Shown here: positions 9,672 through 27,855 of the stretch, piece by piece
Layout: the number at the start of each line of letters is the position of its first letter
How positions within the stretch are numbered: position 1 is the first letter of the stretch
Source of the DNA: an uncultured Clostridia bacterium
GTDB taxonomy: Bacteria; Bacillota; Clostridia; Oscillospirales; JAAYOS01
Reading direction: 5' to 3'
Assembly (NCBI GenBank): GCA_947630675.1
Contig: CANRIN010000009.1
Span: 1 to 47,314 of the forward strand
Length of the DNA stretch: 47,314 nt
Made by a program: the position numbers and the translations under genes
The notes under the pieces: model-generated
The model's database searches: none
The model's input: the letters and a program-made list of their open reading frames with translations, nothing else
What the model was told of the DNA's origin: nothing

Positions 9672-9688
9672 GCGATACAGCAGTTTAG

Positions 9689-9719
9689 GTGGGCGAGGCA
9701 AAAAGCCTCGCCCACTTTT
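9689..9719 (+). terminator. Terminator of reverse rubrerythrin
   Basis: GTGGGCGAGGC (9689-9699), loop AAAAA, GCCTCGCCCAC (9705-9715), then TTTTG. Confidence 0.9.
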
Positions 9720-9727
9720 GCAAAAGA

Positions 9728-9755
9728 AAGGAGCGGGGCACAAGCCCCGTTCCTT
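9728..9755 (-). terminator. Terminator of the SHOCT membrane protein gene
   Basis: AAGGAGCGGGGC (9728-9739), loop ACAA, GCCCCGTTCCTT (9744-9755), one mismatch. On the minus strand it follows the stop codon by three bases and runs into TTTCTTTTG. Confidence 0.8.
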
Positions 9756-9758
9756 AAC

Positions 9759-10334
9759 TTATAAATCTAATAGTTGTTTTTTCTTTGCGTCAAATTCTTC
9801 CTGCGTAATGATACCGGCATCAAGCAGTTCTTTATATTTCTTTATTTCATCAGCGCTGCTCTGCGGGATTTCCTGTTTGACCGTAGTTGCAACGTTTTTT
9901 TCTTTTTCCTGCCTTTCGAGAAGCAGTTTGCTGATTTCAGCATGAATTTCATCTCGGTTTTTAATAAGCGAAAATTTGATTGCACTGGAAGCTGTATTAA
10001 CAGAAATACTCTTCAAAATGCCAGTACCGACAGCAGAAATTGAATCCAATGGCAAGTCTACCCGCTTTCCAAATGCTGCTTTCCCATAAACTCGTTTATT
10101 TGTTACAACAAGTTGGCATCCGGCAAGCCACCAACAGAAAAACAGAGGAAAGATAATAATAGCAATAGACAAAAGACTTCCGTAGAAAGGATCGAAAAAA
10201 GCCTGAAAACGGATATTTCCCTCAAAGAATTGCATAAAAATTAGCAGCACTCCAAAAGCAATCAATGCCACAATACAATAAACCAGCCAATAATTTTTGA
10301 CTCCTTCATTTTGTATTATTTCTTTTTCTTCCAT
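9759..10334 (-). CDS. Membrane protein with PH-like segment and C-terminal SHOCT domain
   Basis: 191 residues from ATG 10334; GGAGGAG upstream overlaps the in-frame GTG at 10349, which is therefore not the start. Two membrane helices (about 15-36 and 50-70) are followed by a bacterial-PH-like stretch (CQLVVTNKRVYGKAAFGKRVDLPLDSI), a charged helix, and a typical SHOCT domain (160-189: DEIKKYKELLDAGIITQEEF). SHOCT tails are oligomerisation modules. The gene is visibly richer in A and T than its neighbours and uses AAA, ATT and TTT freely, which suggests recent acquisition. A short inverted repeat (AATCTTCG 10368-10375, CGAAGATT 10385-10392) lies in its leader. Function is unknown. Confidence 0.8.
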   Translation of the reverse strand: MEEKEIIQNEGVKNYWLVYCIVALIAFGVLLIFMQFFEGNIRFQAFFDPFYGSLLSIAIIIFPLFFCWWLAGCQLVVTNKRVYGKAAFGKRVDLPLDSISAVGTGILKSISVNTASSAIKFSLIKNRDEIHAEISKLLLERQEKEKNVATTVKQEIPQSSADEIKKYKELLDAGIITQEEFDAKKKQLLDL

Positions 10335-10481
10335 AATACACTCCTCCACGTTTTAGGGCTTTCGGTAAATCTTCGTTGACAATCCGAAGATTCTGCTAAT
10401 AGGATTTTTGAATGTCCGACAGGTAATAGCAACTGTGACATTTCCGGCCGCAGAATTAAAATCCCGATGCAAGTCAATTAT

Positions 10482-10525
10482 ATATCTTGAAATTATATAT
10501 GTCAAGAAAAACATATCTTCAAATT
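10482..10525. promoter_or_regulatory. Candidate operator repeats upstream of the XRE regulator
   Basis: ATATCTTGAAATT (10482-10494) and ATATCTTCAAATT (10513-10525) are 13-base direct repeats with one mismatch and a 31-base period, three helical turns. TCTTGA and TCAAGA also make an inverted pair across 10485-10507. A -10-like TATACT follows at 10551-10556. Autoregulation by the downstream protein is a reasonable inference. Confidence 0.5.
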
Positions 10526-10583
10526 CCCTGTTTTTCGCCCGACGCCGCTTTATACTATAACCACACAGCGGCAGGAGGAAACC

Positions 10584-10895
10584 ATGGATTACTTGAGTTT
10601 TGTGTCAAAGCGCATATCGCAGCTCAGAGTGCAGAAAGGCATATCCGCGAGGGATATGAGCCTGTCGCTCGGACAGAGCGAGAGCTATATAAATAAAATA
10701 GAAAACAGGCATGCAATGCCGTCTATGGCCGGCTTTTTCTATATCTGTGAGTTTTTCGGCATAACTCCGGAAGAATTTTTCAAAAGTGAGGTTGACGCAC
10801 CGCAGAAGACAAGAGAGCTGATGCACGAAATCGACAGGCTTTCGCCGTCGCAGACAGAACATATCCTTTCAATCATTAAAGATATCACAGAATAA
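10584..10895 (+). CDS. Small XRE-family transcriptional regulator
   Basis: 103 residues; GCAGGAGGAAACC before the ATG. The first 65 residues form an XRE helix-turn-helix (RISQLRVQKGISARDMSLSL, then GQSESYINKIENRHAMPSM and FFGITPEEFF). The rest (70-103) is a helical tail ending in LSPSQTEHILSIIKDI, common in short XRE regulators of Firmicutes, with no ligand domain. Base composition is lower in GC than the surroundings, as for the divergent SHOCT membrane gene, so both may have arrived together. Confidence 0.88.
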   Translation: MDYLSFVSKRISQLRVQKGISARDMSLSLGQSESYINKIENRHAMPSMAGFFYICEFFGITPEEFFKSEVDAPQKTRELMHEIDRLSPSQTEHILSIIKDITE

Positions 10896-10926
10896 AAGCG
10901 GCGATTGGTTTTACGGAGCGTACTTA

Positions 10927-10956
10927 TTGACACGCGGCAGGCGCAGACTGTATAAT
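10927..10956 (+). promoter_or_regulatory. Promoter of the GNAT acetyltransferase gene
   Basis: TTGACA (10927-10932) and TATAAT (10951-10956), both perfect, with an 18-base spacer. Confidence 0.85.
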
Positions 10957-11046
10957 GACAGAGCACTACTTACAGTCAAGATCCGCTTTTATGTGACGAC
11001 AATTCCGCGAGATGTATCCTGTGGAGCGTAGAACGGAGGAATACGA

Positions 11047-22907: not shown

Positions 22908-23663
22908 ATGAACAAGGGGCGGATAATGCTCTTTGCGATGCTCGCCGCGGCCACGATAGTCATAGCGGTGCTGATGAGCATATTCGCGACCGGCGCGACG
23001 AGCGAGCGGCCGGAGATAGTCCTGCCGCAGGAGCTCCCCGAAGGATTTCAGCCAGGTTGGAGCTTTGACGGCTCGGACCGTGCGCCGGACGCCGGAGACG
23101 TGAGCGCGGATACGCTTGCGGCGCTCGTGCTGTCGCTTGAGCGGCCGGAGGAGTATTACGCCACGATAAAGGTCGGACTGTACTGGGACGGCGGCTCGTC
23201 CGAGACGCGCCGCGAGGTGTGGTCGACCGGCGGCTATGAGCTTATCCGCAGCTACGATGAAACGGGCGCGGCCGAGCGGAACTGCATCGTCGCGGGCGAG
23301 GACACCTACATCTGGTACGAGAACGAGACGCAGTACTACGTCGGCGCGACGGCGGCGTTCAGCACGGACGACGAGGCGCAGATACCGACCTACGAGGATC
23401 TGGCGGCGGTGCCTCCTGAGAATGTGGTGCGCTGCCGGTACGAGGCGAGCGGGGATATCCCCTGCCTTTACGCCGAGACGGTGGACAGCATGGGGCAGAC
23501 GAACCGCTGGTGGGTGTCGCTTTCAAGCGGGCTTCTGTGGAAGTTCGAGACATGGGACGGCGGCGAGCTCGCCTACTCGATGCAGACGCTCTCGCTTTCC
23601 ACCGACGCGGTGGACAGGGGAGAGTTCGTCCTGCCGGACGGAAACAACGTTTTTGCGAGGTAG
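22908..23663 (+). CDS. Membrane-anchored secreted protein of unknown function
   Basis: 251 residues, four bases after wecB and thus in the same operon. One N-terminal membrane segment (7-28, LFAMLAAATIVIAVLMSIFA) is followed by an exported domain. The pattern YYATIKVGLYWDGGSSETRREVWSTGG, CIVAGEDTYIWYENETQYYVG, DIPCLYAETVDSMGQTNRWWVSLSSGLLWKFETWDGGELAYSMQTLSL resembles LolA/RseB-like half-barrels that bind lipids or envelope partners. A role linked to wall-polymer assembly is guessed from the operon. No enzymatic motif is seen. Confidence 0.7.
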   Translation: MNKGRIMLFAMLAAATIVIAVLMSIFATGATSERPEIVLPQELPEGFQPGWSFDGSDRAPDAGDVSADTLAALVLSLERPEEYYATIKVGLYWDGGSSETRREVWSTGGYELIRSYDETGAAERNCIVAGEDTYIWYENETQYYVGATAAFSTDDEAQIPTYEDLAAVPPENVVRCRYEASGDIPCLYAETVDSMGQTNRWWVSLSSGLLWKFETWDGGELAYSMQTLSLSTDAVDRGEFVLPDGNNVFAR

Positions 23664-23699
23664 AACCTCCGAAGGACGCGAAAAATGCGGGGCGGGCCC

Positions 23700-24562
23700 C
23701 GCGTCCAAGCGGGCAGAGCCCACACCCATCGAGCGGGGAAGACCCCGCAGGAATCTGCGGGGCGAGACCCCGCGTCCCTAAGTGAGGCTGAGCCTCACCG
23801 GTACTTTGTGGGGGCGGGGCCCCCACACCCCCTTGCGGGGCATACCGCCCCGCACCCTGCGCTACTTTTTGCTTGTGCAAAAAGTAGCCAAAAACACACA
23901 TAGGGGAGAAAACCAAGTTTTCTCCCCTATGTACCCCTCTTTCTACATATTGAGTCTCTACCACGCTACAAATAGCGGGAAAGCTGGTATCAGCTTCCCC
24001 GCTTATACTTTCTGCATAGAACCGAAAGTTTCGTTTTCTTAGGGTACGTTCTGCATTACGCCTATAGTCGGAGCGTTGAACCGGACTTTTTGACTCTACG
24101 ACGCAGGAATCGTTTGATGTTGTCGACTGTCTGGGGAGAGTCGGATAGAAACTCACCCGGTGGGATGATAGATTTGGTTGATGCAGAGTATGTCCTGTTA
24201 TGTGGGTTGCGGTTGTGTGTCTGTATTGGGAGAGGGTTTATTAAGGGAGAGGGCTGAGCCCTCTCCCTTAAGCGCGTTTTTGATTACTTTTTGCGCGAGC
24301 AAAAAGTAATGCAGGGGCGCGGGGCGGCACAGCCCCGCGAAGGTAGTGGTGAGGCTCTGCCTCACTCAGGGACGCGGGGGTCGCCCCGCAGATTCCTGCG
24401 GGGTCTTCCCCGCTAGATGGGGGTGGGGCAGCAGGCCCCGCATGGTGCCGGTGAGGCTCTGCCTCACTTCGGGATGCGGGGGGGCCTGCCCAGCAAATAC
24501 TTGCGGGGCTTCCCCGCTGGATGGGGGTGGGCTTTGCCCGCTTGCTTGCGGGGTCTTTCCCG
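23700..24562. repeat. Mirror-arranged hairpin region between convergent genes
   Basis: No gene is supported in 23664-24562. Left half: GC-rich block 23718-23799, a TGGGGGC/GCCCCCA hairpin near 23810, GCTACTTTTTGC/GCAAAAAGTAGC (23861-23888), and a perfect 16-base-arm hairpin (23898-23913 and 23917-23932). Right half, in opposite orientation: a perfect 15-base-arm hairpin (24241-24271), ATTACTTTTTGC/GCAAAAAGTAAT (24283-24310), and block 24348-24429, the near-exact reverse complement of 23718-23799. A further direct copy lies at 24450-24532 (period 102). The centre (23933-24240) is not symmetric. The outer hairpins can terminate the two converging operons. Confidence 0.7.
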
Positions 24563-26797
24563 CTATACATTTGAAAGTCTCACGATGTTGACGTTGTCGT
24601 GCTGCCCTGCGCACAGCTCCGCCTCGCGGCTGTGGCAGGTGAAGAGCAGTATCTGCCGCGTTTCTGCCTCGCGTTCGAGGAGGCGGAGCGCCGCCTCCGT
24701 GCGGCGGTCGTCGAAGGTGACAAACGCGTCGTCAAGAATCAGCGGGGTGTCGTCGGGGAGAACGGTGCGCGCTACGGCGAGCCGCAGCGCAAACCAGAGC
24801 TGGTCGGATGTACCACGGCTCAGCTCCGCGCCCGAGCGGAGGGGAGACGCCTCGCGCCCCGCCTCCGGCCGGAACTCACGGCTCACCGCAACGCGCTCGT
24901 ACTTTCCTCCGGTGAGCTCTCCGAGTATCCGCGCCGTCTCTGCGCTGAGAGCGGGGGAGAAACGGCTGCGAAGCTCGTCGCCCGCGCGCCGGAGCGCCTC
25001 GAGCGCCATGTCGATGGCGCGGTAACGGCGTTCGCGGTCGGCAAGGCGCTCTGAAAGCCGCCCGCGCTTTTCGTCAATGATAGCCGCATCGCGCCCGTTG
25101 AGCTGTCCTTCGGCGCGTGCGATGTCGCTTCTGAGCCCGCTTATCCTGAGCCGTAGGTCCTTTAGCTCCGTATCCGTCTCTTCACGCGCTGCTCCGGAGA
25201 AAACTTCGGCTTCCGAAGCGTTCTCCTCGCTCTCGTCCGTACATCCCGCGAGGACGGAGCTTTTCAGGGCGTCTATCTTGGCGCGCTCCCTGAGTGCGCT
25301 GCTCCGGAGTACGTCGCGCCGCTCGCTCCATGAGGCGAGCGTTCTCAGCGCGTCGAGCGGCTGACCGCGTTCGCCGGTGAGCGCTGTGAGCTCGTCCTCC
25401 GCCGGGGTCGGCTCGCTTTCTGCGAGCTTCCTCCGTTCGGCGCACTCGTCGCGGCGAGCCTCTGCCGAAGCCGTGTCCGCGATAAACTCACGGAGCGTAT
25501 CGGCGGAGGTCATATCCCAGCTTTTCAGCAGCTTTTCAAGCGATTCGCGCGCAAGCTTCGCTCTGCGCGCACTCTTTACCGCCAGGACCGCAAGCACAAG
25601 GCAGGAGACCGCCGCAGCGGCTCCGCAGAATACCGGTATGATGGAGCGGACGGGCAAAGCGAGCACGAAGCAGCAGACGGCGGCAAGCCCGAGGAGCGCC
25701 GCAAGGACGGTGAAGCGGCGCGGCGCCCTGTCCGACGCGGACTTCTCAAACTGCACAGCCTTGTCGAGGTCCTGCTGCGCGCCGGCCGCCGCGCGGCCCG
25801 CGAGAGTGTCCTTGTTCGGGAGCGCGCCGTGCGCGTGCTGTGCCCTGTTTACGGCGGCGAATATCTGCCTGTCGAGCGCGGAAAGCTCCGCGTCTATGTC
25901 TCTGAGGCGCGCGGCGGATGCGTCCCGCTCGGCCGTGACACGCCCCTCGAGGCTCCGCAGCTCGCCCGTGGACGGGCACTCTTCGGGCAGGACGTTTTCC
26001 TCGATGTTCCGGAGTTCGCGTTCGATATCCCCGAGGCGCTCCTTCGCGGCGGTAAGATCCCTCCGCGCGGCGGCGCTCTCGGCGGAGCCCATCCGTTTCA
26101 GAATATCTTCAAGCTCCTTCTCGCGGGCGGACGCCTCGCGGAGCTCCGCTTCAAGCGAGTCTATCAGGTCGGCGGTCCTGCGGCACTCGTCCGCCTCGCG
26201 CCGCAGGGCGTCTATTTCGTTTTCAAGGTCGGGGATCTCTCCGCGCCGGTTAAAGCGGAGGCGGCGCTGCCACTCGCGCAGGCGCGCTTCCGCCGCCGCG
26301 GCGTTCGCGCTCTCGTCCCCGGAGGAGACGGTCGCAAGTATCCTCGCTTCAAGCTCGGCGGAGCCGGAAGGCAGCGGCGGCGAGGAGACGAACGCGCTCC
26401 GCTCGAACACCTCGCGGCTCGCGCCGGTCAGCTTTTCACCGACGTCCTCGGCGGTGAGACCGGCGTCGCCTCCGCCGGAGGTGTAGGCGCGGAGACTGCG
26501 GAGCGGCGCTGAGTCGGTGCCGCTCCGTTCCAGCGTTATCTCGCGGCCATCCGCCTCAAGCTCGAGCCTGCCGCTTATCGGCGCGCCGGACCACGGCCGG
26601 TAGAGGTTCTTTTCGGCGGGACGCTCCTTTGTGTCGCGCTCCCGAGTGGGTATGCCGTAGAGCATCGCTCGGAGGAACGCGCACCATGTCGACTTCCCGC
26701 TCTCGTTTGCGCCCTCGATGATATTGAGTCCGGGCTTGAGCTCGAGCTTCGACTCGTTGAGCCCCGCAAACGTCGCAAACATCCGTCTTATCTTCAC
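24563..26797 (-). CDS. YhaN/SbcC-like AAA ATPase with two membrane segments
   Basis: 744 residues. ABC-type ATPase split by a coiled coil: Walker A GANESGKST (29-37), coiled coil 185-360 and 410-560, signature ELSRG (658-662) and Walker B LILDDAF (686-692). It pairs with the nuclease encoded just upstream, whose last four bases (ATGA) overlap its start. In B. subtilis YhaN/YhaO and in SbcCD/Rad50-Mre11 such pairs process DNA ends. In the middle of the coiled coil are two hydrophobic stretches (363-383 and 386-408, for example FTVLAALLGLAAVCCFVLAL) that would place the apex in the membrane, as reported for some Firmicutes YhaN proteins. This differs from SbcC zinc-hook proteins; no CxxC hook is present. 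Confidence 0.88.
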   Translation of the reverse strand: MKIRRMFATFAGLNESKLELKPGLNIIEGANESGKSTWCAFLRAMLYGIPTRERDTKERPAEKNLYRPWSGAPISGRLELEADGREITLERSGTDSAPLRSLRAYTSGGGDAGLTAEDVGEKLTGASREVFERSAFVSSPPLPSGSAELEARILATVSSGDESANAAAAEARLREWQRRLRFNRRGEIPDLENEIDALRREADECRRTADLIDSLEAELREASAREKELEDILKRMGSAESAAARRDLTAAKERLGDIERELRNIEENVLPEECPSTGELRSLEGRVTAERDASAARLRDIDAELSALDRQIFAAVNRAQHAHGALPNKDTLAGRAAAGAQQDLDKAVQFEKSASDRAPRRFTVLAALLGLAAVCCFVLALPVRSIIPVFCGAAAAVSCLVLAVLAVKSARRAKLARESLEKLLKSWDMTSADTLREFIADTASAEARRDECAERRKLAESEPTPAEDELTALTGERGQPLDALRTLASWSERRDVLRSSALRERAKIDALKSSVLAGCTDESEENASEAEVFSGAAREETDTELKDLRLRISGLRSDIARAEGQLNGRDAAIIDEKRGRLSERLADRERRYRAIDMALEALRRAGDELRSRFSPALSAETARILGELTGGKYERVAVSREFRPEAGREASPLRSGAELSRGTSDQLWFALRLAVARTVLPDDTPLILDDAFVTFDDRRTEAALRLLEREAETRQILLFTCHSREAELCAGQHDNVNIVRLSNV

Positions 26798-27855
26798 AGC
26801 GGCGCCTCCTCTCCGTCAAGCGCGGCGAGACCGTACCTCGCGGCAAGCTCCGAAAGAGCCCCGGTTTCTTCCGAGTCTCCGGCGCCGCCGGCCTCGGCGC
26901 GGACGGCGTCGAGCGCGCGGAGAAACGCCCCCGCAAGGGAATCCTCTCCGGCACGCTCGCGCACCCGCTTCGGAAGGCGCGTTCTGTCCACGACTTTGAC
27001 ATAGAACGCACGCGGCGCAAGCTCGCGCGCGAGCGCTTCGGTGTCGACCGGTTCGCTCTCGCCGGTGAGGACGAGCTTTACAAGGTCGCGCTCAAGGCCG
27101 TCCGGGACCGCGCGCTCGCCGCTCTCTATCGTCACGAATTTGCGCGCGCCGAGCGGAACGAATCTCGCCCGGGCGCGATCCTCGATCTCGACAATGTACA
27201 CTCCCTTCTCGCCGGTCTCGTCAAAGCCGCGCCCCATGGGGCAGCCCGGGTAGGCAAAGAGCGTGTCGCCCGCGCGGGCGGCCTCACTCCGCGCGTGTAT
27301 GTGCCCGAGTGCGAGGTAACTGAGCCCGCTCGCGGCGATGTCCCGCGGCGAGACCGCGTGATAGTACGCGGAGGAGACTTCGGTCTCGCCGTGCAGGACC
27401 ATGACCGAGGGACGGTCCGGGTCCGCACGGAAGCCATGCAGCAGCTCGTGCTCGACTCTCGGCGCGGCAAAGCCCGCGCCGTAGACGTCGAAGTCACCGC
27501 AGGGTATCTTCTCTATCCGCTCGTAGCGGAAGATGCGGACGTTCTCGGGCAGGTCCTGCCTGCGGTAGACCGAGTGGACCGACATGAAGTCGTGATTTCC
27601 GGGCGAGATGAACACCGGCATGCCGGCGCGGCCGAGTAGGGAGAAGGTCCTGTCCGCCACCGAGCGGGAGGGGGACGGTTCTTCAAAGAGATCGCCGGCG
27701 ATGAGTATGGCGTCCGCACGCTCGCTTTCCGCGAGCTCGCATATCTTTGCAAGCGTGGTGAAAAGCTCCTCGCGGAGCGCAGACGCCGTTTCCTCGGGAA
27801 GACCCGCTATCGGCGAGCCGAGGTGCAGGTCGGCGGTATGGATAAGCTTTATCAT
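26794..27855 (-). CDS. YhaO/SbcD-like DNA repair metallophosphoesterase
   Basis: 353 residues. Calcineurin-like phosphoesterase motifs in order: HTADLHLGSP (Asp9, His11), ILIAGDLFEEP, SPGNHDFM, LHGETEV and GHIHARSEA. This is the Mre11/SbcD/YhaO fold, an exonuclease working with the coiled-coil ATPase that follows with a 4-base overlap. The C-terminal third (240-353) is a capping region. GGAG precedes the ATG; the gene starts 36 bases after the serine hydrolase gene, so the three are probably one transcript. Confidence 0.92.
   Translation of the reverse strand: MIKLIHTADLHLGSPIAGLPEETASALREELFTTLAKICELAESERADAILIAGDLFEEPSPSRSVADRTFSLLGRAGMPVFISPGNHDFMSVHSVYRRQDLPENVRIFRYERIEKIPCGDFDVYGAGFAAPRVEHELLHGFRADPDRPSVMVLHGETEVSSAYYHAVSPRDIAASGLSYLALGHIHARSEAARAGDTLFAYPGCPMGRGFDETGEKGVYIVEIEDRARARFVPLGARKFVTIESGERAVPDGLERDLVKLVLTGESEPVDTEALARELAPRAFYVKVVDRTRLPKRVRERAGEDSLAGAFLRALDAVRAEAGGAGDSEETGALSELAARYGLAALDGEEAPL

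Follow-up and report, generated by a model that had tools for sequence, protein, structure and literature searches.

What is the dense array of hairpins that lies between two convergent genes in this stretch of clostridial DNA? The window (the whole analyzed stretch of 47,314 nucleotides from an uncultured Clostridia bacterium) contains 57 hairpins with a stem of at least 7 and a loop of 3–6 bases. Twelve of them fall into a single 899-bp gap; every other gap of the window has four at most. According to our own gene finder, the neighboring genes end at positions 23663 (plus strand) and 24563 (minus strand) and are therefore convergent. A preliminary description of the locus reported a mirror-symmetric array of about 860 bases and suggested either a non-autonomous inverted-repeat element or a fold that isolates the converging transcripts. 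Another gap of the window, 1.4 kb long (9672–11046) and free of genes according to the same gene finder, has two hairpins only. The right-hand neighbors of the array (24563–27855, minus strand) encode an AAA/SMC-like ATPase and a calcineurin-like phosphoesterase, a pair that we take to be SbcCD-like or YhaN/YhaM-like. Hairpins are a known cutting substrate of SbcCD. The adjacency of such a pair and a hairpin element may be a coincidence.

The gap holds a whole copy of an element with two arms and a core. The copy occupies positions 23686–24565 (no strand is assigned, and the outer ends are approximate) and was delimited by its repeat arms, homologous copies and orthologous empty sites. The left arm begins with a GC-rich hairpin array (23686–23857) built of tandem units of about 104 bp that are inverted relative to the right arm. 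It is followed by the left TACTTTTTGC hairpin (23861–23888), whose loop TTGT (23873–23876) can pair with CACA (23895–23898) in a potential pseudoknot, and by a long perfect hairpin (23898–23932). Next is the unique core of about 308 bp (23933–24240), which is non-coding and homogenized within each species. On the right side the long perfect hairpin (24241–24271) comes first, then the TACTTTTTGC hairpin (24283–24310), whose loop can pair with GCGCG at 24272–24276, and then a GC-rich hairpin array of more than two tandem units (24315–24565), which runs up to the stop codon of the right-hand gene. Each arm, read from the outside to the inside, consists of the array of ~104-bp units, the TACTTTTTGC hairpin, an A-run and the long perfect hairpin. 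In a standard scan both long hairpins are terminator-like and face outward from the core, the left one on the minus strand and the right one on the plus strand. Such hairpins would stop transcripts that exit the core, not those arriving from the neighboring genes. The scan of this region detected no sigma-70-like promoter.

The hairpin array between convergent genes is thus as first described, with both TACTTTTTGC hairpins and both long hairpins in place. The repeated arms are also real, but the symmetry is of the reverse-complement and not of the mirror type: segment 23719–23770 is 92% complementary to 24376–24427, 23768–23836 is 78% complementary to 24311–24379, and 23855–23940 is 73% complementary to 24231–24316. 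The third GC-rich block of the preliminary description is a true repeat, namely a tandem unit of the right arm (24330–24427 against 24432–24531, 73–78% identical at a spacing of 102–104 bp). The array was delimited too narrowly: its left boundary lies near 23686, and on the right its last hairpin shares bases with the stop codon of the neighboring gene. The layout of the hairpins was given correctly, but the core between the arms went unmentioned.

The element is not confined to this locus. In the window's own genome (G000; 2.06 Mb, 107 contigs) the region was matched 231 times and the core 51 times; the GC-rich block is multicopy, and the symmetry persists in relatives. Three of the four other genomes of the genus (G001, G003 and G004) carry the core; the search gave none in G002. 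Merging and removal of duplicates left 80 distinct cores: 24 in G000, 14 in G001, 24 in G003 and 18 in G004, the last three counts being incomplete because nearly all of these cores come from contigs with an exact 24-base core pattern. Within the order the core is present in four of 394 genomes, all from one of 168 genera. The search with the whole region gave matches in five of the 59 genomes scored, including the window's own; G002 was matched through arm-type hairpins only. A scan of GTDB contigs for the core pattern returned 56 stretches, all in three Clostridia MAGs (Lapin-022 bin13, Lapin-004 bin9 and Lapin-003-2 bin20), and from “Lapin” in these names we read a rabbit-gut source of the carriers. 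Viral contigs contained no match to the core pattern or the arm motif, and plasmid and phage collections no match to the element. The names and numbers of contigs indicate that the genomes are short-read MAGs. The element breaks such assemblies of uncultured gut genomes: many contigs stop inside its copies. Our copy numbers should therefore be read as minimum values, and misassembly may account for some of the flips or junctions.

The architecture is well preserved from copy to copy. The left arm has its TACTTTTTGC hairpin and its long hairpin in all 53 uncut copies, and of these copies 48 have the right long hairpin and 47 the right TACTTTTTGC hairpin; the number of recognized array units per arm ranges from 0 to 5. 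The stems of the array hairpins stay perfect despite sequence change (GTGAGGC..GCCTCAC, GTAGAGC..GCTCTAC, GTGGGC..GCCCAC). The loop of the TACTTTTTGC hairpin matches the bases after the A-run in all but one of the 110 fully parsed arms, arms with altered hairpins being excluded from this Fisher-tested count: TTGT or TTGC goes with CACAC in 50 arms and TCGC with CGCG in 59. The loop and the bases just inside it are a potential pseudoknot. The loop type mostly follows the side of the arm; four left arms bear both halves of the other type, which could alternatively come from a short conversion tract.

A coding origin of the core was rejected, since the lengths of the indels between core copies are not divisible by three, so that any frame is broken. 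A second, shorter core variant has the first ~193 bases in common with the core of the window and a different right end; among the copies looked at it occurs in G000 only (e.g., L045–L047, L050, L051 and L055). Several copies are irregular. A truncated copy (L063, G000:C49:14100-14928) has the AGAAACTCACCCGGT module of the core duplicated in tandem, and at L052/L059 (G000:C107:1700-2700) the right end of a copy continues into the right end of the other core variant in inverted orientation, which looks like nesting or rearrangement. In the left arm of L036 and the right arms of L058 and L074, GTGCGAGCTCGAACATCTTCCGC... and then TTGTCCGC hairpins replace a part of the GC array. The arms in G001 accompany cores or lie at contig ends, with the exception of one solo fragment, and no gene-bearing (autonomous) version was seen in that genome.

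Orthologous sites were compared using one genome per species, orthology being judged by the similarity of flanking genes from our own codon-based gene finder and not by curated annotation. The site of the window is filled in G004 and empty in G001 and G003, where about 80 bp with a small GC hairpin are found. The site of L041 is empty in G001 (71 bp) and filled in the opposite orientation in G003. The site of L047 is empty in G001 and G004 (about 45 bp) and filled in G003, with junctions nearly identical to those in G000. At the site of L056, both G003 and G004 have no core and retain about 50 bp of sequence similar to the arm modules seen elsewhere in the family. This remnant scores 46.8 bits against at most 26.8 bits in 60 shuffles and is, to judge from the match, a scar of element loss. 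We looked by eye for target-site duplications, a check proposed in the preliminary description, and saw no clear one at the window locus and six further filled/empty loci, where the ends are approximate.

Copies of one genome are alike. The mean within-genome identity of cores, computed over the part common to both core variants, is 0.900 in G000, 0.874 in G001, 0.899 in G003 and 0.854 in G004. Cores occupying the same site in G000 and G003 are identical at 0.699 (n = 9) versus 0.697 over all 380 G000/G003 pairs, and most of the matched flanking proteins at same sites are more than 90% identical. Judged by sequence, copies that are alike within the genome and not within the site are a case of concerted evolution. 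A tree of 53 cores, in which the bootstrap has not settled, groups them by species with five label changes (the minimum possible is three, the shuffled mean is 26.6). A copy of opposite orientation occurs in 11 of the 22 conserved site groups that were left after weak matches (below 85% identity or 80 aa) had been dropped. Among pairs matched on both flanks, three of 17 are inverted and 14 have the same orientation. In our reading, copies recombine with each other via their inverted arms, and both the flips and the homogenization result from this.

The copies prefer a particular gene context. Both neighbors are visible for 50 copies, of which 31 lie between convergent, 12 between tandem and seven between divergent genes. 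Of 135 other intergenic gaps longer than 60 bp at these loci, 18 are convergent (Fisher p = 1.9e-10, with orthologous copies not independent of each other). In G000 alone, 10 of 12 copies are situated between convergent genes. The bias is also compatible with insertions that are merely tolerated there. The suggestion that the array is a fold isolating the converging transcripts finds no support, given this second reading of the bias and the outward direction of the terminator-like hairpins.

Could the same anatomy have arisen with no concerted evolution? A recent burst in each species, re-using a limited number of preferred sites, would produce species-specific cores in random orientation. Flips in about half of the conserved site groups would also fit such independent insertion, as would the fact that copies from the same site resemble each other no more than random copies do. 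However, the near-identical L047 junctions in G000 and G003 and the L056 arm scars in G003 and G004 point to ancestral insertions and thereby weaken the re-insertion reading, and the orientation common to 14 of the 17 pairs matched on both flanks also speaks against it. We consider such bursts rather unlikely. It is also improbable, in our opinion, that the copies are kept by selection as a module that serves the host at 3' ends, where the GC hairpins, the pseudoknot and the long hairpin would stabilize converging mRNA ends or limit antisense read-through. The location of 31 of the 50 copies between convergent genes, the identical structure met by a transcript coming from either arm, and array stems that remain perfect while their sequence varies are what one would expect of such a module. 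Yet the same sites in congeners work with short native hairpins in place of the element, the terminator-like hairpins face outward, and seven of the 50 copies lie between divergent genes.

Two further explanations draw on known kinds of bacterial repeats and genes. The conserved core of 300 bp, which has an outward-facing terminator-like hairpin at either end, could be a multicopy structured RNA gene, whose core is transcribed and acts as RNA between two terminators, and the fold of the minus strand (z = -4.2) agrees with that. But the plus strand gives z = -2.0, and both-sided change is seen in only four of 52 predicted consensus pairs, a weak covariation that does not favor an RNA gene. Moreover, the best Rfam score is 26.4 bits, where the gathering score is 53, and only chance-level matches of the microRNA type were obtained, the promoter scan was negative, and G002 retains the arms around unrelated cores. 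An RNA gene is therefore very improbable. Inverted palindromic units in intergenic mosaic arrays also bring to mind REPIN or BIME arrays mobilized by a RAYT (Y1 HUH) transposase. The profile search for RAYT/IS200 (PF01797, Y1_Tnp) found none in any of the five genomes of the genus, while five control genomes, E. coli among them, were positive; besides, the copies are about 0.9 kb long with a long core and are not short REP pairs. We regard this origin as extremely improbable.

We conclude that the locus is probably one copy of a genus-restricted, non-autonomous, foldback-like element. As far as sequence comparison can tell, this is a family of dispersed copies with inverted arms of variable tandem hairpin units and a common core; its orthologous sites may be filled or empty, one emptied site keeps an arm scar, the cores are homogenized across each species, and conserved sites hold the element in opposite orientations. 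The dispersed copies, the filled and empty sites and the scar agree with the non-autonomous inverted-repeat element initially suggested. We use the terms foldback-like and MITE-type with respect to architecture, not descent. We suppose that a trans-acting enzyme recognizes the folded ends of the arms, probably as extruded or single-stranded hairpins, and inserts the element into intergenic DNA where genes end. The arms of different copies would then undergo gene conversion or homologous recombination by the host, which would flip the element and homogenize the cores. The same process would alter the number of arm units and sometimes delete the core, leaving a scar. Most surviving insertions would be those between convergent genes, where the damage is smallest, and the two outward terminator-like hairpins would keep any core transcript out of the neighboring genes.

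Similar layouts are found beyond the carriers of the core. In G002 the same layout encloses cores that have no detectable similarity (L013, L017, L029 and L223); one of these elements, L029, is flanked by convergent genes. The exact motif TACTTTTTGN{2,9}CAAAAAGTARCCAAAAA occurs in all five genomes of the genus and in one of 389 other genomes of the order (G374), and a second motif is present in the same six genomes. In G374 a GC-hairpin array is followed by the hairpin of the motif and then by a hairpin flanked by CTTAAG. The locus L222 (G374:C14:619-660) is a single arm built in the same way; its genome belongs to another family of the order and has no core match. In a class-level scan, 16 of 391 genomes, the window's own among them, had matches with E values no higher than 0.01. 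We inspected six class-level loci: L274 is a strong case, L273 and L282 are partial ones, and L275 (oriented by guess), L279 and L281 do not have the architecture. Other families of the class thus provide one strong and two partial cases (G427, G549 and G466). Pairing of the loop with downstream bases in seven arms outside the four core carriers exceeds that in shuffled sequences (p = 0.00015), as it does in the four most independent of them (p = 0.015); in both tests the arms were picked after inspection. Tentatively, these may be members of a new class of bacterial mobile elements in several families of Clostridia, defined by shape rather than by sequence, although we hold this broader reading for possible rather than probable. 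Such a class would have inverted arms of hairpin arrays, a pseudoknot-capped T/A-rich hairpin and then a long hairpin around freely replaceable cores, and the enzyme would recognize the fold of the arm instead of a sequence motif.

The compact family studied here has no RAYT and combines homogenization, a loss scar and flips. It thus offers bacterial material in which to test both hairpin-based mobility and the concerted evolution of dispersed repeats.

In the broad sense the element is MITE-like: it is non-coding, has inverted-repeat ends and many dispersed copies, and is present or absent at orthologous sites. It shares with the bacterial MITEs Correia/NEMIS, RUP and ERIC, as presented in the available part of PMC2229807, a non-coding, dispersed, inverted-repeat and mostly intergenic nature. 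Unlike it, the classical MITEs described there are about 100–200 bp long and A+T-rich, with terminal TA and target duplications. REPINs and BIMEs, according to the sections available of PMC3116915, are likewise inverted palindromic units in intergenic regions, sometimes in tandem clusters; however, our genus has no RAYT, and the element is far longer, with a conserved 300-bp core that is homogenized species-wide. The BrickBuilt and MITE464/PgRS elements of Porphyromonas gingivalis are similar in having about 20 intergenic copies per genome, internal tandem repeats, a narrow host range and no autonomy (PMC4596501, in its accessible part). Their tandem repeats of 23 or 41 bp form the middle of the element, whereas ours form the inverted arms, and their short ends match elements of the IS5 family, whereas the element described here has no known parent IS.

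Long inverted arms of tandem sub-repeats that flank a middle domain are characteristic of foldback (FB) elements. In the available text of PMC3169594, the eukaryotic ones (FB of Drosophila, Galileo and the nematode Tm1) have long composite inverted arms with several domains and variable tandem repeats around a middle part, and some members have no transposase. Their arms are described there as hotspots of ectopic recombination, and a target duplication of 9 bp is given for FB and Tm1. In contrast to the elements of that account, ours is bacterial, its arms consist of GC-rich hairpins with a potential pseudoknot, no transposase-bearing member was found in G001, where it was looked for, and no clear 9-bp target duplication was seen at the loci read by eye. 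The word “foldback” is absent from the available part of a review of prokaryotic MITEs, and the “foldback” literature that we found is, judged by its titles, eukaryotic except for one unrelated Helicobacter paper; a foldback architecture thus seems to be undescribed in bacteria. In its overall design the element is closer to the foldback elements of animals and plants than to the repeats usually met in bacteria.
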